Shown here in pieces: positions 13,650 to 23,830 of a stretch of 48,433 nucleotides of DNA. Under the pieces are notes generated by a model, which saw nothing but the letters and a program-made list of their open reading frames with translations, had not been told where the DNA came from and did no database searches. The position numbers were made by a program, and so were the translations under genes. The stretch comes from Verrucomicrobiales bacterium (GTDB taxonomy: Bacteria > Verrucomicrobiota > Verrucomicrobiia > Limisphaerales > UBA9464). The stretch covers positions 1 through 48,433 of the forward strand of contig JAIXUV010000115.1 in the NCBI GenBank assembly GCA_027483345.1. Direction: 5' to 3'. The first letter of the stretch is position 1. Each line of letters opens with the position of its first letter.

Positions 13650-14657
13650 TCAGCGGCTCGGCGAAGCGAGCGTCCCGGACAAGAATTCCTCCACGGCCTT
13701 CGTCCACTCCGCAGGCGAAGTCGCCAGCCCTCCCTCGTGACCGGAGTCCGCCAAGCGCACCAACGTGACCGGTCCATCCGCCGCGCGCTTCAATTCCTCG
13801 GCTTCCTCCGACCGCACCCGCGTGTCCCGTTCCCCGTGGATCAGCAGCACCGGGACCCGGATCCGCCGAAGGTACCCCACCGGCTGATGCCGGAACCCGT
13901 CGAAGCCCGCCACCCGGCCTCCCCAGAAGGTCAGCAGCCAACCACCCGGATTCCTCGGAAGCCCCATCGCGGCGAAGCGGTTCTCCACGGCGTCCTGGAA
14001 ACGCGCGAAGGTGCATTCGCCGATGATTCCCCGCGGCTCGATCCCGAGTTCCCCAACCGCCCGCATCACGGCCGCCGCCCCCATCGAGGCGCCATGGAGG
14101 AATACCGGGTTTCCCGCCGCACGGGACGAAGCGGCCGCGAAAACCGCCCGGACGTCCTCCGCCTCGTGGTAGCCCAAGGAGGTGGTATTTCCGCTGGAAC
14201 CGCCGACACCCCGGAAATCGGTCAGCCAGACCTCGAGTCCCATCCGGTGGTAGGCCTCTCCCATTCCCAACAACCCGTCCTTGCTCCCTCCGTATCCGTG
14301 GAAGAGCAGGATCACGCCATGGGTGGGCCCGCCGTTCGGTGCGGGGAGGCGCCAGGTCTCGAGCAGGACATCCGACGAGGCCAAGATCCGGAGCGTTTCG
14401 AACTCCAACCCGAGGTCGCGGGGCGTCCGATGATTGCCTGGACGTGGGAAATCGACACCGCGAACGAGGACCCCAAGACGTTCCAGCCGGCCCAGGCTTT
14501 CGGGCGGACGTGTCCGCACTGTCGCATCCGAGAAGGTCATGAACTTCCGGGCGTGGTTCCACGCCAGCAACTGGGTAAGGAACACCACGGCCGCGATCCC
14601 CAACCCGACACGGACCAGGATCCTTCGCCGCGCGGATGCAATGGACGGGACAGCCAT
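13650..14657 (-). CDS. membrane-anchored alpha/beta hydrolase
   Basis: This is a 335-residue hydrolase with one N-terminal membrane segment at about residues 14-32 and the catalytic domain outside. The oxyanion strand is LLFHGYGGSKDG at 118-129. The nucleophile elbow is GASMG at 189-193 (Ser191), the acid is Asp278 in HGERDTRV and the base is His307 in DSGHEGG. It resembles the BAAT/cutinase-like and YqkD/FrsA-like hydrolases; the substrate is unknown. ATG at 14657 gives a short basic lead into the membrane segment and has GAGGG about 9 bases upstream; in-frame ATGs at 14687 and 14744 exist. It is divergent from the CarF-type gene, and the 98-bp gap must hold both promoters. Confidence 0.8.
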   Translation of the reverse strand: MAVPSIASARRRILVRVGLGIAAVVFLTQLLAWNHARKFMTFSDATVRTRPPESLGRLERLGVLVRGVDFPRPGNHRTPRDLGLEFETLRILASSDVLLETWRLPAPNGGPTHGVILLFHGYGGSKDGLLGMGEAYHRMGLEVWLTDFRGVGGSSGNTTSLGYHEAEDVRAVFAAASSRAAGNPVFLHGASMGAAAVMRAVGELGIEPRGIIGECTFARFQDAVENRFAAMGLPRNPGGWLLTFWGGRVAGFDGFRHQPVGYLRRIRVPVLLIHGERDTRVRSEEAEELKRAADGPVTLVRLADSGHEGGLATSPAEWTKAVEEFLSGTLASPSR

Positions 14658-14755
14658 CGACGCGACCCTCGCCGGCGGGATCGACTGCATCAATGTCGGG
14701 GGAACGCTTTTCGATTCACCGGAACGCGGTGGGATCGGCGACACCGTGCGGCGTC

Positions 14756-15358
14756 ATGAACGCCTGGTTCACCGCACCGCTCGAGACCGCAGGGATCTTC
14801 CTCGCCGCCGACTTCGTCGTCGGCTTCGTCCATTGGATCGAGGACGCCTACATCCGGGAGAACAGCCCGGTGGTGGGCGGACTGATCGGAAGACCCAACA
14901 TCCTCCACCACCACCTGCCCCGTCACTTCACCCGCAAGTCGTGGTGGGAATCGTGTTGGGACCAGATGATCCTCGCGGGTGTCTTCCTCGCGTTCGCCTT
15001 GTGGGCCGGGTTCCTCGGCTGGCAGGCGGTCCTGTTCGCGGCCCTTGTGGGCAACGCGAACCAGATCCACAAGTGGGCCCACCGCAGCCGCCGGGAGAAC
15101 GGTCCTTGGATCAGTCTTCTCCAGGACCTGAAGGTCTTCCAGAGTGCCCGCCATCACGCCCGCCACCACACCGATCCCAAGTCCACCCACTACTGCGTGA
15201 TCACCGAATTCCTGAACCCGGTGCTCGAACGTCTCCGTTTCTGGACGCGCCTCGAGTGCCTTCTCTGGAAGTTCTTCCACCTGCGCCGCCGGATCGACTC
15301 CTCCAACCGCCGCCATGGCGCCCCTCCGGATTGGATCCGGATGGCGTCCCATGCCTGA
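14756..15358 (+). CDS. carF: CarF/TMEM189-type lipid desaturase (plasmanylethanolamine desaturase family)
   Basis: A 200-residue membrane enzyme of the Kua/LDD family. Its characterised members (CarF of Myxococcus, human PEDS1) introduce the vinyl-ether double bond that turns plasmanyl into plasmenyl lipids, using O2 and a di-iron centre. The His pattern is complete: His26 in FVHWIEDAY, HHHLPRHF at 51-58, NQIHKWAH at 102-109 and HHARHHTDP at 133-141 followed by HYCVITEFLNP. Hydrophobic segments lie at 11-25 and about 71-99. It is 18 bases upstream of an LplT-like transporter and heads a nine-gene rightward run. No Shine-Dalgarno sequence precedes ATG 14756; the frame extends upstream but without family likeness. 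The exact lipid substrate is inferred. Confidence 0.87.
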   Translation: MNAWFTAPLETAGIFLAADFVVGFVHWIEDAYIRENSPVVGGLIGRPNILHHHLPRHFTRKSWWESCWDQMILAGVFLAFALWAGFLGWQAVLFAALVGNANQIHKWAHRSRRENGPWISLLQDLKVFQSARHHARHHTDPKSTHYCVITEFLNPVLERLRFWTRLECLLWKFFHLRRRIDSSNRRHGAPPDWIRMASHA

Positions 15359-15376
15359 TTCCCAGCCGTACGACCC

Positions 15377-16732
15377 ATGAATTCCGCCCGCAACTACCCA
15401 CTTCTTCTGCTGAGCCAGTTCCTCGGCGCCTTCGGGGACAACGCCATCCTCGCGGTGATCGTCGGGCAACTCACCTACCTCCAGAAGGCGGGCCGCATCA
15501 CCGAGGCCGAGCTGCGTACCAGCAACACCATCTACACCAGCCTCCTCTTCGTTCCCTACATCCTGCTCGCTCCGTTGGCCGGCTACCTGAACGACCGCTT
15601 CGCCAAGACCCGCTGGCTCGCCGGCGGCAACCTCCTCAAGCTCGCCGGGACCTTGGTCTGCATGCTCAGCGTCCATGGCAGCACCTTCTGGCAGGGACTC
15701 GGATACCTGATCGTCGGAATCGGCTCCTGCCTCTATGCCCCTGCGAAGTACGGGATCCTCCCCGAGATCCTGCCCCGGGAACGCCTGGTGAAGGCCAACG
15801 GTTCGGTGGAACTCCTCACCCTGGTCGCCATCCTCGTGGGCGCGATTGCCGGTTCCGTGATGGCCGACCGGTGGAAGGATGCCGTCCTGAGCTCCTACTG
15901 CGTCGTCCTGGCGATCTTCGGCGGATCCCTGCTCCTCAACCTGCTCATGGAGAAGACCCCCGAGGACCGCTCGGTCCGGCTGGCGGGAAGCGTGACTGAG
16001 TTCACGGACCACCTGCTGGAACTCGTCGGGTCCCCCCGCTTGGGACGTCTCCTGACCACGGGAATCCCAGGCGGAACCGGTTCGGCGGGCCTCTTCGCCG
16101 GCTCGACCCGGCTGCTGAGCGTGCTGGTCGGCACGGCCCTCTTCTGGGTCTGCGGCGCGGCGATGAAGATCAACTTCCAACCCTGGGGACTCGAGGTCCT
16201 GAAGCTGCCGGACAACACCCAGATCGCCCTTCTCGGCCTTTGGCTCAGCATCGGCGTGATGGTCGGCAGCATCGCGGCCGGACAACTCTTCCGACTGGGC
16301 GACCTCCGCAGGACCCGCCTCTTTGGGTTCGCCCTCGCCGGTATCCTCGCGCTCCTCTACACGGTGGAGGACCTCGGGTTCTGGCGGACCCCGGTGGTGC
16401 ACGCCGGGCCGCTGCACCTTGTCGTGCCGGTGGTGCTCCTCCTGGTGGCCGCCGGGATCGCCGCCGGCCTCTTCCTCATCCCGCTCAACGCCGCGCTCCA
16501 GTCCGAATCCGATCCGCGGAAGCTCGGAAAGACCATCGCGGTGCAGAACCTCGCCGACAACCTGGGCATGATGACCGCCGGGGTGATCTGTTTCCTCTGC
16601 GTCAAGGCGGGCATCAGCTCGTCCGGCGTCTTCCTGATCCTTGCCGGGGCCATCGCCTTCGTCGTCACACTGCTCCGGATCCCGCCGCTCCTCCGCGTCG
16701 GACAGACTCAGCCGCCTACGGTTTCCCCATGA
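15377..16732 (+). CDS. lplT: MFS transporter, LplT-like lysophospholipid flippase
   Basis: This 451-residue major-facilitator protein has about 12 membrane segments. The N-terminal signature FLGAFGDNAIL, the loop GYLNDRFAKTRWL and GSCLYAPAKYGILPEILP are typical of LplT, which flips lysophosphatidylethanolamine across the inner membrane for re-acylation. Its stop overlaps the start of the Aas-like gene by four bases (ATGA), the same pairing as lplT-aas in enterobacteria, so the assignment rests on both sequence and context. It follows a plasmalogen-type desaturase gene by 18 bases. The substrate lysolipid here could be a lyso-ether lipid, which is inference. Confidence 0.85.
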   Translation: MNSARNYPLLLLSQFLGAFGDNAILAVIVGQLTYLQKAGRITEAELRTSNTIYTSLLFVPYILLAPLAGYLNDRFAKTRWLAGGNLLKLAGTLVCMLSVHGSTFWQGLGYLIVGIGSCLYAPAKYGILPEILPRERLVKANGSVELLTLVAILVGAIAGSVMADRWKDAVLSSYCVVLAIFGGSLLLNLLMEKTPEDRSVRLAGSVTEFTDHLLELVGSPRLGRLLTTGIPGGTGSAGLFAGSTRLLSVLVGTALFWVCGAAMKINFQPWGLEVLKLPDNTQIALLGLWLSIGVMVGSIAAGQLFRLGDLRRTRLFGFALAGILALLYTVEDLGFWRTPVVHAGPLHLVVPVVLLLVAAGIAAGLFLIPLNAALQSESDPRKLGKTIAVQNLADNLGMMTAGVICFLCVKAGISSSGVFLILAGAIAFVVTLLRIPPLLRVGQTQPPTVSP

Positions 16733-18921
16733 AAGCACTGGTACGCCTGCTCCTCCGGATCTGCTTCCGGTTCCGCGCCCACAACACCGAGGTTCTCGAC
16801 ACACCGGGTCCCGTGCTGCTGCTGCCCAACCACGTCTCCTGGCTGGACTGGCTCTTCCTCGGCGCCGTCCTCGGCGAAGACTGGCGCTTCGTGACCAGTT
16901 CCACGGCGGCCCAGACCACCTGGTTGCACCGGCGGATCATGATCAGTCCCCGGACATTTCCCGTGGACACGGCCTCGCCCTACGCGGCGAAGCGGATGGC
17001 CGAGTTCCTGGAGAAGGGCGGCAGGCTGGTCCTGTTCCCGGAGGGCCGCATCTCCACCACGACCCGCCTGATGCGGCTCTTCGACGGCACCGGATTCCTG
17101 ATCCACAAGACCGGGGCGAAGGTCATCACCTGCTACCTCCGCGAGGCCGTGCGCGTCCCGGTCGTGCAGCACTCGGGCTGGACACGCTGGTTTCCCAAGG
17201 TCTCCGTCCACTTCAGCCCGGTCCGGATCGCACCGACGTTGAGGGAACTTCCCAACACCGTGGCCCGCCAACGCATCACCTCCTGGCTCCGGGACCGCAT
17301 GGTCGAGCAGCAGTTCGAGGTGGAGCAGGAGTTCGGCCCCTCGAACGTGCTCGCCGCCATCGCCGAGACCGCGGCAAGGCTTCCCGGGAAGAAGGTGCTG
17401 GAGGACATCAACCTGAAGCCGTTGACCTATCGGCGCCTCATGGTCGGGACGGAGCTCCTCGCACAGCAGTTCGCCGGGCTCGGACCGCGTTTCGCGGAAG
17501 GCCGCGATCCGATCACCAGCCATATCGGGGTCCTCCTTCCCAACGTCAACGGAATGCCCGTGACCCTGCTCGCCCTCTGGGCCAACGACCTCGTCCCCGC
17601 GGTCCTCAACTTCTCCACCGGAGTGCCGGTGATGCTGCAGTGCGCCCGCCTCGCCGGGCTCCGCCACATCGTGACTTCGCGGGCCTTCCTCGAGAAGGCC
17701 AGGCTCGACATCCGGCCGCTCGAGGCCGCGGGGATCACTTTCCACCACCTCGAGGACGTCCGTGCACGCATCACCACCATCGAACGGGTCACCGCGTTGC
17801 TGCGGCACACCGTGGCCTGCGGGCGATCGTTCCGGGACTCCGGACGCGACTTGGCCCAAGGCCAACGCCCGGCCGTCGTCCTCTTCACCTCCGGATCCGA
17901 AGGTGTCCCCAAGGGCGTCGTCCTGAGCCACGCCAACCTGCTGGCCAACATCCGACAGATGGACGCCTCGCTGGACATCACCGACCACGAGCGCTTCTTC
18001 AACGCCCTGCCGCTCTTCCACAGTTTCGGACTCACCGCCTGCACCCTCCTGCCGCTCGTGCGCGGGCTGTACACGTTCCTCTACCCCTCGCCCCTGCATT
18101 ACCGGGTGGTGCCCACCGCCGTGTACGAACGGAACTGCACGGTCATGGTGGGAACCAACACCTTCCTCAACGGCTATGCCCGCAAGGCCGCGCCGTACGA
18201 CTTCCAGAGCGTGAAGTACCTCGTCGCCGGAGCCGAGAAGGTCCAGGAGGCCACCGCCCAGACCTGGGCCCGCAAGTTCGGCATCCGCCTGCTCGAGGGC
18301 TACGGCGCCACCGAATGCAGTCCCGTGCTCTGCGCCAACAACCGCATCGAGTCCCGGTTCGGCAGCGTCGGCCGCTTCATGCCGGGTATGTCCTGGCGCC
18401 TGGAACCCGTGGAGGGCGTCAGCGAACACGCCTCCGACGGACGCGTCATCTCGGGACGGCTCTTCGTGCGCGGTCCCAACGTGATGCTCGGCTACCTCAA
18501 CCCCGACGCCGACGCCACGTTCCGCGGGCACGGCGGCTGGTACGACACCGGCGACCTCGCCCGCATCGACGACGACGGCTTCGTCTTCCTTCTCGGCCGA
18601 ATGAAGCGCTTCGCCAAGGTCAGCGGCGAGATGGTCAGCCTGACCGCGGTCGAGGACGCCCTTGCCGGCGGGTTCCCCCAACACGGTCTCCGGTGCGAGG
18701 TCGCGGTCGTGGCCGTGGCCTGCGAGGACAAGGGGGAGAAGCTGGTCGCCATCACCAATGTCGGGAATCTGACCCTCGACGAGATCCGCCAGGTCGTCCG
18801 CGCCAAGGGACTCGCCAACCTCTGCGTGCCGCGCGAACTGCGGCATGTCCGCGAGATCCCCAAGCTCGGCACCGGCAAGGTCAACCACCGCTCGTTGATC
18901 GAGTCCCTCGCCAACCCCTGA
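16729..18921 (+). CDS. aas: Aas-like bifunctional acyltransferase / acyl-ACP synthetase
   Basis: This 730-residue two-domain enzyme has an N-terminal PlsC-type acyltransferase with the catalytic NHVSWLD (His35, Asp40) and FPEGR at 103-107. The C-terminal part is an adenylate-forming synthetase with LFTSGSEGVPKGVVLSH at about 383-399, YGATECSP at 525-532 and the YDTGDLARIDDDG motif near 605. In E. coli Aas activates a fatty acid on bound ACP and re-acylates lysophosphatidylethanolamine brought in by LplT. The length (E. coli Aas 719) and the overlap with the lplT-like gene match this. It is followed after 7 bases by a DUF2157 gene. Confidence 0.9.
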   Translation: MKALVRLLLRICFRFRAHNTEVLDTPGPVLLLPNHVSWLDWLFLGAVLGEDWRFVTSSTAAQTTWLHRRIMISPRTFPVDTASPYAAKRMAEFLEKGGRLVLFPEGRISTTTRLMRLFDGTGFLIHKTGAKVITCYLREAVRVPVVQHSGWTRWFPKVSVHFSPVRIAPTLRELPNTVARQRITSWLRDRMVEQQFEVEQEFGPSNVLAAIAETAARLPGKKVLEDINLKPLTYRRLMVGTELLAQQFAGLGPRFAEGRDPITSHIGVLLPNVNGMPVTLLALWANDLVPAVLNFSTGVPVMLQCARLAGLRHIVTSRAFLEKARLDIRPLEAAGITFHHLEDVRARITTIERVTALLRHTVACGRSFRDSGRDLAQGQRPAVVLFTSGSEGVPKGVVLSHANLLANIRQMDASLDITDHERFFNALPLFHSFGLTACTLLPLVRGLYTFLYPSPLHYRVVPTAVYERNCTVMVGTNTFLNGYARKAAPYDFQSVKYLVAGAEKVQEATAQTWARKFGIRLLEGYGATECSPVLCANNRIESRFGSVGRFMPGMSWRLEPVEGVSEHASDGRVISGRLFVRGPNVMLGYLNPDADATFRGHGGWYDTGDLARIDDDGFVFLLGRMKRFAKVSGEMVSLTAVEDALAGGFPQHGLRCEVAVVAVACEDKGEKLVAITNVGNLTLDEIRQVVRAKGLANLCVPRELRHVREIPKLGTGKVNHRSLIESLANP

Positions 18922-18928
18922 TGCCATC

Positions 18929-20098
18929 ATGCGAAAATCCGACATCGAGCAACTGCTGCAGGAAGGGCTGATCACCCGTCTCCAACACGACCTCATCATC
19001 CACCGCCATCGGCTCGACAGGGAATCCAACCGGCTGCTCGTGATCCTCGCCGTCCTCGGTGGGATCCTGTTCGTCTGCGGCGCCGTGCTGCTCGTGGCCG
19101 CCAACTGGGACTCGGTTCCCAAGGCGCCCAAGATCGGCGGCGGCATCCTGCTCATGCTGGGCGCCCATCTCCTGGGATGGCGCCTCGGGAAGGGCGGCGA
19201 CCATCCCGCGATCGCCACCACCCTCCACCTCGTAGGCGCAGGGCTGTTCCTCGCCAACATCGCGTTGGTGGGGCAGATCTACCACCTCGGCTCCCGCGCA
19301 CCCGATGCGGTGCTGCTCTGGCTTGCCGGCATGGTTCCACTCCCATGGATCCTTCGCTCCAGGGCACTCCACATCCTCACGCTCACCACCTTCGGAATCT
19401 GGCTCGGCACGGAACTCACCCAGGACGACGGCCTTCTCCGTTTCGGTGGCGGCGCCCGCATGTGCTCGTTCTACCTGCTCCTCGGCGTGCTCTTCGTCGG
19501 ACTGGGCGGCCTGCTGCGACGCGGACCCTTCGCCGAGTTTGCCGGGGCCACGGAGAAGTTCGGCCTGCTCGGCGTCCACCACGCCTCGTTGCCCCTGATG
19601 ATCGGGGCCTTCTATGGGCAGTCCGCGGTGACCCAGGGAGCCTGGATCCTTTCCGGAGCCGTCGCCGCGCTGGCGCTGGCGCTCGTCGGCACGGCGCTGG
19701 CCCGCAATGTCGACGGCATGCCCGTGAAATGGAGGATGGCGTGGTTCGGGGCGCTGGTCGTCGTCGTCGCCGTCGGCTGGACCGGCCTGCTGGCTGGATC
19801 CGACTCCGCCTTCCATCAACGGGGAGACATCGGCCCCCACTGGCTCGTCATCCCAGTCCTGTTCGCGGTCTCCCTGGTCCAGATCCAGGTCGGGATCCAG
19901 CGGTCCAGCGCCTTCCACGTGAACCTCGCCATCGTCGCCATCGCGGTGCAGATCCTGGCCGCCTTCTTCCAGCTCTTCGGATCAATGGCCGACACGGGAA
20001 TGATCTTCGTCAGCACCGGGCTGCTGCTGATCCTCCTCGGCTGGTACCTCGAGCGACACCGCAGGTCCCTTGTCAGGAGCATGAGGTCCGCAGCCTGA
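18929..20098 (+). CDS. DUF2157 membrane protein
   Basis: This 389-residue protein has an amphipathic N-terminus (RKSDIEQLLQEGLITRLQHD) and about 10 hydrophobic segments, starting with LLVILAVLGGILFVCGAVLLVAANW, the family's hallmark. DUF2157 proteins have no known biochemical role. They are often followed by a GDYXXLXY-domain protein, as here after 18 bases. It ends in a basic ERHRRSLVRS tail. It lies 7 bases after the Aas-like gene, so it is very probably co-transcribed. A part in envelope homeostasis is only a guess. Confidence 0.82.
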   Translation: MRKSDIEQLLQEGLITRLQHDLIIHRHRLDRESNRLLVILAVLGGILFVCGAVLLVAANWDSVPKAPKIGGGILLMLGAHLLGWRLGKGGDHPAIATTLHLVGAGLFLANIALVGQIYHLGSRAPDAVLLWLAGMVPLPWILRSRALHILTLTTFGIWLGTELTQDDGLLRFGGGARMCSFYLLLGVLFVGLGGLLRRGPFAEFAGATEKFGLLGVHHASLPLMIGAFYGQSAVTQGAWILSGAVAALALALVGTALARNVDGMPVKWRMAWFGALVVVVAVGWTGLLAGSDSAFHQRGDIGPHWLVIPVLFAVSLVQIQVGIQRSSAFHVNLAIVAIAVQILAAFFQLFGSMADTGMIFVSTGLLLILLGWYLERHRRSLVRSMRSAA

Positions 20099-20116
20099 AC
20101 CGCACGGAACCCAACC

Positions 20117-20662
20117 ATGAAATCCAGACTCCTCTTCCTCGTGCTCGCCGCGCAGTGCCTCTGGATCCTGGGCACGGTCACGGTGCAGGAATCCCGCCTC
20201 CGCTCCGACGTCACGGTGCTGCTGGAAACGCGCCCGGTCGACCCTCGGGACCTGCTCCGCGGAGACTACGTGATCCTCAACTACGCCATCTCCGACATAC
20301 CCCGGGAACTGTTCCAGGGTCCGGCCTTCCAACAACCCGCCATCGGAACACCGGTCCACGTGGCCCTCGCAAAGCAAGGCGACTTCCATGTCGCCGTCGC
20401 CGCCTACCTGCAGAAGCCGAAGGACGAATCCCGGCCATTGCTTCAGGGGCGGGTCGTCCAATCGCGTTGGACGGCAGGCCAGCCCAACTCGGTGCGGCTC
20501 GAATACGGCATCGAACGTTACTACGTCCGCGAGGGCACCGGAGAACCGCAGGGCAAGTTGACGGTCGAGGCGGCCATTCCGCCCAACGGACGCGCGGTCA
20601 TCCGAAAGCTGTACCTCGATGGAAAACCCTTCGCCGAAGCCATGTCCGACATCGCCCGCTGA
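20117..20662 (+). CDS. GDYXXLXY-domain protein
   Basis: This 181-residue protein has an N-terminal hydrophobic anchor or signal (LLFLVLAAQCLWILGTVTV) and the family-naming motif GDYVILNY at 49-56. A second conserved block is YGIERYYVREGTG near 133-145, also typical. The family is the usual partner of DUF2157 membrane proteins and is of unknown function. It probably faces the periplasm. It lies 18 bases after the DUF2157 gene and 36 bases before a lipoprotein gene, within the long rightward unit. Confidence 0.85.
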   Translation: MKSRLLFLVLAAQCLWILGTVTVQESRLRSDVTVLLETRPVDPRDLLRGDYVILNYAISDIPRELFQGPAFQQPAIGTPVHVALAKQGDFHVAVAAYLQKPKDESRPLLQGRVVQSRWTAGQPNSVRLEYGIERYYVREGTGEPQGKLTVEAAIPPNGRAVIRKLYLDGKPFAEAMSDIAR

Positions 20663-20698
20663 TGCGCCATCCGGACCGGAACCGACTCCAAGACTCCC

Positions 20699-21427
20699 AT
20701 GAATCCCAAGTTCCCGAAATCCCTCCCATTCCGGATCCTTCCGCTCGCCGCCCTGTTCCTCGCCGGGTGTGAAACCACCTCCATCTCCGATCCGGGCGGC
20801 TATTCCGCGAGCCCCGGCATCCCGTCCCGAAGCCGGCTCTACCGGGGTGAGATCGCCGAGTATGAGCTGCTGGGGATCGGTGGGACCAACCGGATCACCG
20901 ACGACGACATCCTCAAGGCGCTGGCATCCGCCCAGCCCGTCCGCCTCCGCCGAGGGGCGTCGCTCCTGCTCGTGCAGTCCGGCGCCATCCAACCCGACGA
21001 GCCGCTGCGTTCGGGACTCGCCGAGGCCTTCAAGGTGGTCCCGTTCGACGGCCGGCCCGGAGATGGCGGCACCGACGGTCGGGCCGTCCGGCTGGCCGCC
21101 GCCCATGCCGGCTGCGACCACATCGTCGCCTGCTGGGGCGTGCTCGAGTCCGCCTCGCAGCAGTACGGGACGGAACTGGTCTCCTGGGTTCCGCTGGTCG
21201 GCTGGGCCATCCCGGAGCAGACGCGTCGGACCCGCATGCGACTGAAGGTCGCGCTCATCGACACCCGAACGGGATCGTGGTCGGTGTTCACCACGCAGCC
21301 CCGCGAGGAAGACGCCACCACGGGCTACCTCAACCGCGACAGCGGACGCGTCGCGCAGGTGGAGAAGCTGAAGCGCGCCTGCTACGCCGAGGCCGTGAAG
21401 ACGCTGCTCGACCGCCACACCGATTGA
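20699..21427 (+). CDS. lipoprotein of unknown function
   Basis: This 242-residue lipoprotein precursor has a signal peptide with lipobox LAGC, giving Cys24 as the lipidated residue, followed by a Ser/Gly/Pro-rich linker. The mature part holds an alpha/beta segment resembling outer-membrane peptidoglycan- or curli-associated lipoproteins (RRGASLLLVQSG, AHAGCDHIVACWG, RMRLKVALIDTRTGSWSVF), in which a stress or assembly role is common, but I cannot name the family. It sits mid-operon between membrane-lipid genes and two hydrolases. Confidence 0.75.
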   Translation: MNPKFPKSLPFRILPLAALFLAGCETTSISDPGGYSASPGIPSRSRLYRGEIAEYELLGIGGTNRITDDDILKALASAQPVRLRRGASLLLVQSGAIQPDEPLRSGLAEAFKVVPFDGRPGDGGTDGRAVRLAAAHAGCDHIVACWGVLESASQQYGTELVSWVPLVGWAIPEQTRRTRMRLKVALIDTRTGSWSVFTTQPREEDATTGYLNRDSGRVAQVEKLKRACYAEAVKTLLDRHTD

Positions 21428-21460
21428 CTGCGGGAGGGAAACCGTCCCGGACGCGCACCG

Positions 21461-22132
21461 ATGCATACGCCCTCGGAACAAACCACGGAAACGGTCGTGC
21501 TGCTGCACGGCTGGTGGTCTGGCCGGATGCATCTGGCCGGCCTTGCCAGGAGGCTGCGGCGTTCCGGATTCACGGTGGTTTCCATCGGCTACCCATCGGT
21601 CCGGATGCCGTTGGAGGAAATCGGCTCCCGACTCCTCGGACGTGAATTGGCGAAGCGGATCCCGCCTGACGGTGGCAACATCCACTTCGTCACCCACTCG
21701 ATGGGCGCCCTCGTCCTGCGGCGGCACCTGGAACTCAACGGCCGCGATCGCCTCGGGCGGGTCGTGATGTTGGGACCACCGAACCAAGGCAGCGAGGCCG
21801 CCGACTTCTGGTCGCGGTCGGCCCTGGTCCGCGCGGTCGCCGGACCGAACCTCGTCGCCTTGGGCACAGGTCCGGATTCCTTCGCGCGGCGCCTGCCACC
21901 GGCCGAATTCCCGCTGCTCGTCGTCGCGGGGACGCGTCCACCGCACCCGCTCGTCTCGCCCCTGCCGAAACCGCATGACGGCCGGGTGAGCGTCGAGTCG
22001 ACCCGACTCGTTGGCATGACCTCGCACCACTCGGTGCGGACCTGCCACACCGCCTTGCCGTGGGATCGCGAGGTGTTCGACGTCACCGTGCGGTTCCTCC
22101 GACAAGGGCGCCGGGAGACCCGGGGGGAATGA
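21461..22132 (+). CDS. alpha/beta hydrolase, lipase-like
   Basis: This 223-residue cytosolic-looking hydrolase has VVLLHGWWSG at 12-21 (the lipase oxyanion region), the nucleophile elbow THSMG at 78-82 (Ser80), an acid candidate Asp in KPHDGRV near 171, and a His in CHTALPW near 194. The pattern MLGPPNQGSE after the core strand is typical of triacylglycerol-lipase/PGAP1-like hydrolases. No signal peptide is seen. It overlaps the next gene by four bases (ATGA). The genes upstream suggest a lipid ester as substrate, which is inference. Confidence 0.82.
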   Translation: MHTPSEQTTETVVLLHGWWSGRMHLAGLARRLRRSGFTVVSIGYPSVRMPLEEIGSRLLGRELAKRIPPDGGNIHFVTHSMGALVLRRHLELNGRDRLGRVVMLGPPNQGSEAADFWSRSALVRAVAGPNLVALGTGPDSFARRLPPAEFPLLVVAGTRPPHPLVSPLPKPHDGRVSVESTRLVGMTSHHSVRTCHTALPWDREVFDVTVRFLRQGRRETRGE

Positions 22133-23022
22133 GCGTCCACGACACTGCCTCAAACCGTGAGGTCCGATGCTCGGTTTCGGGTCCCGAGGACGCGGTCACC
22201 GTGGTCTACCTCCCGGGCCTGCATGGGGACTGCACGCTGTTCGGCGGCCTCCGTGCACGGCTTGCGGTCCGGTTCCAGATTGTCGAGGTGGCCTATCCGA
22301 GAGATCAGGAAGACGGGCTGAACGGATTGGCCACCGCTGTGATCCGGGCGCTGCAGGAGGCCGGAATACGGCGCGGGACGCTGCTCGCGGAATCGTTTGG
22401 ATCCCAGGTCGCCTGGGCCATCCTCCGCGCTGCGCCAACCGGCTTCCAGACCGAGCGCCTGTGTCTCGCCGGTGGATTCGTGTCGCATCCCTGGCCATGG
22501 GCTGTCCGGTTGACAGGCGGATTCCCATTCGGCACAGCGTCTCCCCTGCTCGCCGCCATGGTCCAGCTCTTCCCACGGATCGCTCCGTGGATCGGCGAAT
22601 CCTGGGTGGGGAGGCGGGAGGCGATCCGCCGTTTCGTCGCAGAGCGGAGACGGAACGGCGACCGTCTGGCCATGAGCCGACGTCTCCGGATGATCCTCGA
22701 CGAGGACCTCCGCCCCACCGCGGCCAACACCTCCATCCCGGTGCACCAACTGAGCGGCTTCTGGGATCTGGTCGTTCCTTGGTGGTCGGTGGACCGATGG
22801 CTGCGGAGGCACTGCCCGGGTCGAATTGGACCGTGTCGGCTCGTCAATACCGACCACGCGGTCCTGTTCAACCGACCCGCCGACGCCGCCGCCTGGCTCG
22901 CCGAAATCCTCAACGCCGGTGGGCTCGGGGAAAACACCGGCTTTACTCCGAACCGGCTTGGGTCAGGATCGCCCCCGCGTTCCCCCGGGAACGAACCCGA
23001 ACATGTCAAAGGTCATCGCTGA
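22129..23022 (+). CDS. second alpha/beta hydrolase
   Basis: This is a 297-residue protein with VVYLPGLHGD at 25-34 and the elbow AESFGSQ at 87-93, where Ala replaces the first Gly of GxSxG (Ser89). An Asp in GFWDLVVP near 212 and a His in NTDHAVLF near 242 complete a likely triad. A hydrophobic Trp/Pro-rich cap insert lies around 120-160. The start overlaps the previous stop (ATGA), and a G-run immediately upstream is one of the few purine-rich ribosome-binding regions in the window. Its 3' end overlaps the reductase start by 20 bases. The last 30 residues are low-complexity. The substrate is unknown. Confidence 0.8.
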   Translation: MSVHDTASNREVRCSVSGPEDAVTVVYLPGLHGDCTLFGGLRARLAVRFQIVEVAYPRDQEDGLNGLATAVIRALQEAGIRRGTLLAESFGSQVAWAILRAAPTGFQTERLCLAGGFVSHPWPWAVRLTGGFPFGTASPLLAAMVQLFPRIAPWIGESWVGRREAIRRFVAERRRNGDRLAMSRRLRMILDEDLRPTAANTSIPVHQLSGFWDLVVPWWSVDRWLRRHCPGRIGPCRLVNTDHAVLFNRPADAAAWLAEILNAGGLGENTGFTPNRLGSGSPPRSPGNEPEHVKGHR

Positions 23023-23722
23023 AATGCTTGTCGAGTCGGTGAAGATGGAGCTTCCCGACGTGAAAACCGTCCGGTTCCAGTGGCCCGCCGGATACGAGCC
23101 GGACTTCAAGACCGGCCAGTTCATCACCGTCTACTGGCCCCACAAGACGAAGTACAAGCGCGCGTACTCGCTGAGCTCCTCGGCCCTCGACCGCGGCCAC
23201 TACGAGGTGACCGTGAAGCGCGACGGCAAGATGGGCACGAGCGTCGTCGACTGGCTGGAAGCCGGGGACAAGATGTTCGTCATCCCGCCGGTCGGGAAGT
23301 TCCTCCCGGTCTTCGATCCCCCGGGCAAGCACCTGATCTGCGTCGCCGGCGGCTCCGGCGTCACGCCGTTCCGCGGTTTCGCCCGTGAGGCGACTGCCCG
23401 GAACCTCGATACCCGGATCACCATCCTCTACACGGTCCGCACGACCAACGACATCATCTTCGCCGAGGAGTTCCGCGAACTGGCCGCGAAGAACCCGCGA
23501 TTCCAGTTCCATGTCACCTGCACCCGCCTCGCCCCCGAGGACCCGTGGACCGGCCGTCGCGGACGCATCACGCCGGAGTGGGTGAAGAGCTTCGTCGACA
23601 ACCCGGCGGATTCGGTGTTCTACGCCTGCGGCACCAACGAGATGGTGAACGCGGTGGAACACCTCGTCCTGCACGACCTCGGACTGCCGAAGGAGCAGAT
23701 GAAGCTCGAGAAGTGGGGCTGA
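23003..23722 (+). CDS. ferredoxin-NADP+ reductase-like FAD/NAD(P)H oxidoreductase
   Basis: This 239-residue flavoprotein of the FNR superfamily has FAD-binding RAYSLSS at 53-59, GTSVVDWLEAGD near 78-89, the NAD(P)-binding GGSGVTPFRG at 116-125 and FYACGTNEMV near 208-217. No [2Fe-2S] domain is attached, so it would need a separate partner. It closes the nine-gene run, overlapping the preceding hydrolase by 20 bases, and is followed by a strong terminator. Supplying electrons to the CarF-type desaturase that opens the run is an attractive but unproven role. Confidence 0.87.
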   Translation: MSKVIAEMLVESVKMELPDVKTVRFQWPAGYEPDFKTGQFITVYWPHKTKYKRAYSLSSSALDRGHYEVTVKRDGKMGTSVVDWLEAGDKMFVIPPVGKFLPVFDPPGKHLICVAGGSGVTPFRGFAREATARNLDTRITILYTVRTTNDIIFAEEFRELAAKNPRFQFHVTCTRLAPEDPWTGRRGRITPEWVKSFVDNPADSVFYACGTNEMVNAVEHLVLHDLGLPKEQMKLEKWG

Positions 23723-23759
23723 TCCGCCCCTTCTCAAGCCATCCGACCCCGAATTGCGA

Positions 23760-23793
23760 AAGGCCCCGTTCCTCCGTGGAACGGGGCCTTTTC
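23760..23793 (+). terminator. intrinsic terminator of the nine-gene run
   Basis: A perfect 13-bp stem (AAGGCCCCGTTCC with GGAACGGGGCCTT), 5-base loop and TTTTCG tail lie 37 bases after the reductase stop. Confidence 0.92.
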
Positions 23794-23830
23794 GTTTCCC
23801 GACAACGTCCCCAACGGGCTCCGGAAACAC

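Follow-up and report, generated by a model that had tools for sequence, protein, structure and literature searches.

The window analyzed here is a 48,433-nucleotide stretch of contig JAIXUV010000115.1, taken from a verrucomicrobial draft genome (G000; 402 contigs, 95.5% complete), and it carries on its + strand, from 14756 to 23722, an operon of nine rightward genes. The first encodes a 200-amino-acid membrane di-iron enzyme of the PF10520 (Lipid_desat) family, hereafter the window desaturase (14756..15358; 125.3 bits, cut-off 26.4). After a gap of 18 bases comes a 451-amino-acid LplT-like lysophospholipid transporter of the major facilitator superfamily (MFS) (15377..16732; MFS_1, 94.6 bits), whose gene overlaps by ATGA that of a 730-amino-acid Aas-like lysophospholipid acyltransferase and acyl-acyl carrier protein (ACP) synthetase (16729..18921; PF01553, 66 bits; PF00501, 182 bits). 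Over the whole operon the inter-gene gaps are 18, -4, 7, 18, 36, 33, -4, and -20 bases, and the operon ends at an intrinsic terminator hairpin (about 23759..23796, + strand) with a folding energy of -32.7 kcal/mol versus -16.1 for shuffled sequences (z -5.8). Coordinates, domain families, and folding thus bear out the layout claimed in the original prediction: nine rightward genes that overlap or lie no more than 36 bases apart, an LplT-like and Aas-like pair joined by ATGA, two alpha/beta hydrolases and a flavin reductase at the end, and a strong terminator. Co-transcription of the nine genes is probable; a scan of 13,000 bases found no sigma-70-type promoter, a result that is weakly informative for the phylum Verrucomicrobiota. 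A literature search found no paper on the gene combination of the desaturase-lplT-aas operon.

The gene association is real and conserved, and the desaturase that stands in front belongs to a new clade. In 50 freshwater verrucomicrobial genomes of the window's family, 20 carry a window-type desaturase, and in 18 of these 20 its gene immediately precedes lplT and shares its strand (14 genomes of the window's genus, three of genus g134, and one of g136). The linkage, whose absence from all relatives would have told against the original prediction, is therefore widespread among carriers. The arrangement is retained in two distinct sets, the window's genus and g134/g136, at a desaturase identity of 50-56%. 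It persists where identity to the window falls to about 50% for the desaturase and 61% for LplT, and the gaps are 2-34 bases wide where they were measured. A linked label mapped onto the tree requires 3 changes versus 16.5 for shuffled labels, so the linkage is strongly clustered by descent. The entire window operon, from desaturase to reductase, is repeated in two same-genus genomes (L027 and L068, the first hydrolase being uncalled in L068); these repeats, together with the adjacency in 18 of 20 carriers, argue that the gene order is not due to chance.

Adjacency could nevertheless exist without function, the desaturase merely sharing the promoter of a well-expressed operon. The gene is accessory, being absent from 30 of the 50 family genomes while lplT is present in 47, two genomes (G420 and G488) carry it elsewhere, and in genus g139 a gene read by eye as a MarR-type regulator occupies its place before lplT. 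Against these observations stands a linkage held across deep divergence at short distance, and we consider adjacency alone highly improbable. The unlinked desaturases of G420 (L103 / L041) and G488 (L102 / L188), both of g134, group inside the window-genus clade, which suggests transfer between genera.

The constant part of the operon is lplT-aas, an ordinary lysophospholipid remodelling core. The Aas-like protein carries the acyltransferase motif NHVSWLD (HX4D) and the AMP-binding motif TSGSEGVPKG. The pair resembles LplT-Aas of Escherichia coli in that an MFS transporter adjoins an acyltransferase plus acyl-ACP synthetase with an ATGA overlap, but the window operon is longer, has a desaturase in front, and scores under the E. 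coli equivalog cut-offs. Operons of relatives differ further from that of E. coli by including a divergent Lnt-like gene. This gene encodes a nitrilase-domain membrane protein between lplT and aas in L027 (13355-14866), L028, L030, L031, L069, L076, L077, and L080, and is absent from the window operon and several congeners. On the apolipoprotein N-acyltransferase model, the operon gene scores 69 (L027) and 72 bits (L028) against a cut-off of 133. A separate bona fide Lnt scoring 248-270 bits is present in all seven genomes checked, which makes the operon gene a divergent paralogue. Its position matters because Lnt is a known source of the lyso-phosphatidylethanolamine that LplT and Aas, which form a complex, recycle in E. 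coli (PMC11416262).

The segment from 15377 to 18000 is mosaic when compared with G477 (L027): lplT shares 70% nucleotide identity, while the desaturase and the DUF2157 gene each share 97% and the reductase 99%. Genome G506 has the window's version of the segment from lplT to mid-aas. A divergent segment between near-identical flanks, found alike in G506, probably reflects recombinational replacement. Contamination or misassembly was considered as the origin of the window's odd lplT and rejected, given that an independent genome, G506 (LplT 98% identical), is arranged in the same way.

The desaturase itself has its catalytic set intact. Residues were compared by the published positions of mouse PEDS1 (TMEM189) rather than by an alignment with authentic CarF or FAD4, the counterparts being His 96, 121, 122, 187, 191, 215, 218, and 219 (PMC8960569). 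All eight catalytic His are present (H26, H51, H52, H105, H109, H134, H137, and H138), the essential Asp (mouse Asp100) is kept as D30, four residues after H26, and the His spacing is that of mouse PEDS1 apart from a shorter loop between H122 and H187. The "full His set" described in the original prediction therefore holds for the eight His that PEDS1 and FAD4 share; it does not extend to the ninth His, which is specific to PEDS1 (mouse H131, CarF H113) and is Lys61 in the window desaturase. The position of PEDS1 Phe118 is taken by Asn48. No indel interrupts the H96-D100-F118-H121/H122-H131 spacing in either the window protein or the canonical-type homologue L045, which has Phe at the 118 position and His at the ninth-His position. 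Of 106 sequences examined, 96 have Asn at the Phe118 position and just the three canonical ones have Phe there; the ninth-His position is N in 48, H in 23, K in 15, and R in 10. The ninth His was tried as a clean clade marker and discarded, because the position is variable within the clade and part of the window's genus has His there. A dN/dS (ratio of nonsynonymous to synonymous substitution rates) of 0.09 versus a same-genus genome indicates purifying selection on the desaturase.

These residues bear directly on whether the window desaturase is a true CarF/PEDS1 that would make vinyl-ether (plasmenyl) from plasmanyl lipids in an operon remodelling ether phospholipids. It shares with CarF/PEDS1 the PF10520 family, the eight His, the essential Asp, and a small membrane protein whose helices surround a presumed di-iron site, and the phospholipid remodelling context fits. 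Two positions, however, are altered: Phe118 is totally conserved in the published PEDS1 and FAD4 set, mouse F118A and H131A retain 5.9% and 7.4% activity, respectively, and a change of the ninth His inactivates CarF (PMC8960569). Plant and alphaproteobacterial homologues without the ninth His fail to complement carF (PMC9131029). On the NCBIfam CarF equivalog model, the window desaturase reaches 71.9 bits and does not pass the cut-off of 500, whereas canonical-type proteins of the same order reach 146 (L045) and 142 bits (L046). It is also 200 residues long versus 269 positions in the CarF model, belongs to a separate clade, and stands in an lplT-aas operon in a host without a recognised ether-lipid route.

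In the source genome no homologue of AGPS, ElbD, or PlsA/Ger was recognised; a gene in the missing 5% or another route is possible. Its two PF02913 proteins are of the glycolate-oxidase type (323 and 281 bits, versus 90-104 to alkyl-dihydroxyacetone phosphate synthases), of nine PF07993 matches the best two, those that were read, are dihydroflavonol-reductase-like and epimerase-like rather than ElbD, and PF09989, a marker for PlsA/Ger, has no match. Eleven relatives with a linked desaturase each have two or three PF02913 proteins, which were compared by score and frame length and are similar in both. Three haem-copper oxidase genes suggest that the host uses O2. In favor of plasmalogens, ether-lipid gene homologues were reported in about 16% of the verrucomicrobial metagenome-assembled genomes (MAGs) of one survey (PMC11868695). 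Residues, model score, and missing substrate genes nonetheless disfavor plasmalogen synthesis, and a true CarF/PEDS1 appears very unlikely. The interpretation in the original prediction thus survives in part: a PF10520 desaturase is genetically coupled to the LplT-Aas pair, but two diagnostic residues differ and no ether-lipid genes were recognised to accompany plasmalogen synthesis.

A second candidate, narrowly defined, is an acyl-lipid desaturase of the FAD4 type, which would put a trans double bond into the sn-2 acyl chain close to its carboxyl end. Plant FAD4, a trans-3 acyl desaturase of phosphatidylglycerol, works on an acyl chain that is bound in a phospholipid, as we propose for the window desaturase, and it shares the PF10520 family and the eight-His set. 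Such an enzyme requires no ether substrate, Aas handles acyl chains, and the ninth His is absent, as it is in plant FAD4 (PMC9131029). Published positions nonetheless set the two apart, since the window desaturase lacks an equivalent of Phe118, the residue invariant in the PMC8960569 set. Four congeners (G494, G497, G500, and G501), moreover, encode a separate FAD4-like PF10520 protein (189-194 bits), which argues that the window clade is not the FAD4 type. The copy that was read, L067 (1414-2073), has Phe and Arg at the 118 and ninth-His positions. The source genome has a single PF10520 protein. In G497, the FAD4-like paralogue adjoins a His-rich protein resembling a fatty acid hydroxylase/sterol desaturase relative. 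The FAD4-like activity, which is one specific case of the explanation that we favor, is unlikely in this narrow form.

The 80 rows of window-type proteins group together in a single clade, separate from the canonical L045, L046, and L067 (bootstrap 100; Shimodaira-Hasegawa-like approximate likelihood ratio test 99). The AlphaFold2 model of the window desaturase is confident (predicted local distance difference test 95). Its best solved structural match, from a VIA comparison of the model, is the fatty acid 2-hydroxylase Scs7p (4zr0; Z 7.3 over 153 residues, root-mean-square deviation 4.1 A), followed by a next row at Z 3.0. Foldseek alone gave no significant structural match, and sequence searches found no relatives of solved structure. 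Instead of desaturating lipids, the enzyme might hydroxylate or oxygenate them as a membrane di-iron protein. This would agree with the fold match, with a weak FA_hydroxylase family match (22 bits, under the cut-off of 31), and with the Phe to Asn change, which lies beside the metal site when placed on the PEDS1 model (PMC8960569). PF10520 gives a much higher score, however, at 125 bits, and a common fold cannot tell desaturation from hydroxylation; we consider a hydroxylase quite unlikely.

Some of the remaining genes of the operon go with the remodelling core. A DUF2157 membrane protein (18929..20098; PF09925, 116 bits; gap 7), a GDYXXLXY protein with an N-terminal membrane anchor (20117..20662; PF14345, 101 bits; gap 18), and a putative lipoprotein with the lipobox LAGC that matches no family (20699..21427; gap 36) are followed by two alpha/beta hydrolases. 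The first has the nucleophile motif HSMG (21461..22132; PF12697, Abhydrolase_6, 34 bits; gap 33); the second has the motif ESFGS, belongs to no Pfam family, and overlaps the first by ATGA (22129..23022). The literature search found no paper on DUF2157 with GDYXXLXY. In G420 the order is lplT-lnt-aas-DUF2157-GDYXXLXY-abh2 with the desaturase on a different contig, and the DUF2157, GDYXXLXY, and second hydrolase genes therefore accompany lplT-aas and not the desaturase. Homologues of the second hydrolase terminate the lplT operon in g134.

It had been proposed that the two hydrolases make lysolipids and that the reductase feeds electrons to the desaturase, and neither role found support. By eye, neither hydrolase has a recognisable signal peptide, and the lysolipid made by a cytoplasmic hydrolase would not need delivery by LplT. 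The first hydrolase matches solved structures weakly, through a putative lipase (E 0.009), the second has no solved relative that we could find, and the linked operons do not consistently contain either of them. Lysolipid chemistry outside the membrane may be better assigned to a divergent membrane-anchored alpha/beta hydrolase (Hydrolase_4/S33) beside the desaturase (13650..14744, - strand); in two g139 genomes, too, homologues of it lie next to the lplT operon and point away from it. The final gene encodes a 239-amino-acid FAD/NAD(P)H reductase without a [2Fe-2S] domain (23003..23722; PF00970 and PF00175; overlap 20), whose closest solved relatives are NqrF. It is a housekeeping gene of the family: it is 81-100% identical in 45 of the 50 family genomes, is present in 28 of the 30 that lack a window-type desaturase, is located elsewhere in the other genera examined, and has a dN of zero versus its closest relative. 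It may serve the desaturase all the same, although nothing links it to that role, and the idea of a specific, dedicated partner was rejected.

The desaturase reaches well beyond the family. Distribution counts rest on order- and family-level searches, since a phylum-wide draw of 241 genomes yielded the window-type desaturase only in the source genome itself; a tblastn search for a plasmid origin, using the window protein and a canonical-type homologue, gave no match in 72,556 plasmids. One conserved LysR-type regulator, mostly divergent, adjoins non-family desaturases in L034, L036-L040, L044, L116, L117, L134, L142, L144, L145, L151, and L156, suggesting regulated expression. Several public MAG records (L100, L104, L106, L145, and L150) are titled Akkermansia muciniphila yet group with freshwater relatives, and these titles are apparently wrong.

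Our preferred explanation, tentative and held at somewhat less than even confidence, is that this is a lysophospholipid salvage and remodelling operon fronted by a di-iron lipid desaturase that depends on O2, belongs to a third PF10520 clade, and modifies phospholipid chains. LplT would flip lysophospholipid inward and Aas would re-acylate it, in many relatives with a divergent Lnt-like acyltransferase encoded between them. By analogy with the studied enzymes, the desaturase would dehydrogenate, or less likely hydroxylate, a phospholipid-bound chain near the glycerol. CarF/PEDS1 acts at C1'-C2' of the sn-1 alkyl chain and FAD4 at C3-C4 of the sn-2 acyl chain of phosphatidylglycerol, and a site near the glycerol is proposed because both act there. 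LplT-Aas would then exchange or restore chains, and we propose that desaturation and exchange together set the chain make-up of inner-membrane phospholipids.

Several observations weigh against this explanation. Two of the 20 carriers, G420 and G488, have the desaturase unlinked. In other Verrucomicrobiota and, further afield, in Burkholderiales, Gammaproteobacteria, and other groups, it is solitary or has a LysR-type regulator as its neighbor, and its chemistry therefore does not require LplT-Aas. The LplT model NF008397, still the best-scoring model for the transporter, gives 213 bits against an NCBIfam equivalog cut-off of 297, and the LplT assignment draws on context and this best model. 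The clade tree has long branches, and its canonical side is represented by L045, L046, and L067 without an authentic CarF or FAD4. The Scs7p match, at Z 7.3, lies within the range that may be reached by chance among helical proteins, and the clade is so far known from sequence, gene order, and a predicted model.

To our knowledge, two activities have been studied in PF10520, namely plasmalogen synthesis and formation of the trans-3 fatty acid of chloroplast phosphatidylglycerol. The window desaturase points to a third bacterial clade in which the catalytic set is intact and a neighbor of the metal site is changed, with the lplT-aas gene order as a handle on its substrate. A CarF-like match is not automatically evidence of plasmalogens, a caution that arises because no known ether-lipid gene was recognised in the source genome. 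Whether the clade, spread across Verrucomicrobiota and some Pseudomonadota, is functionally distinct from both PEDS1 and FAD4, and so a third class of PF10520 lipid desaturases, is in our judgment evenly poised; in one verrucomicrobial family such an enzyme would form part of the lysophospholipid remodelling machinery, coupling chain modification to re-acylation by LplT-Aas.

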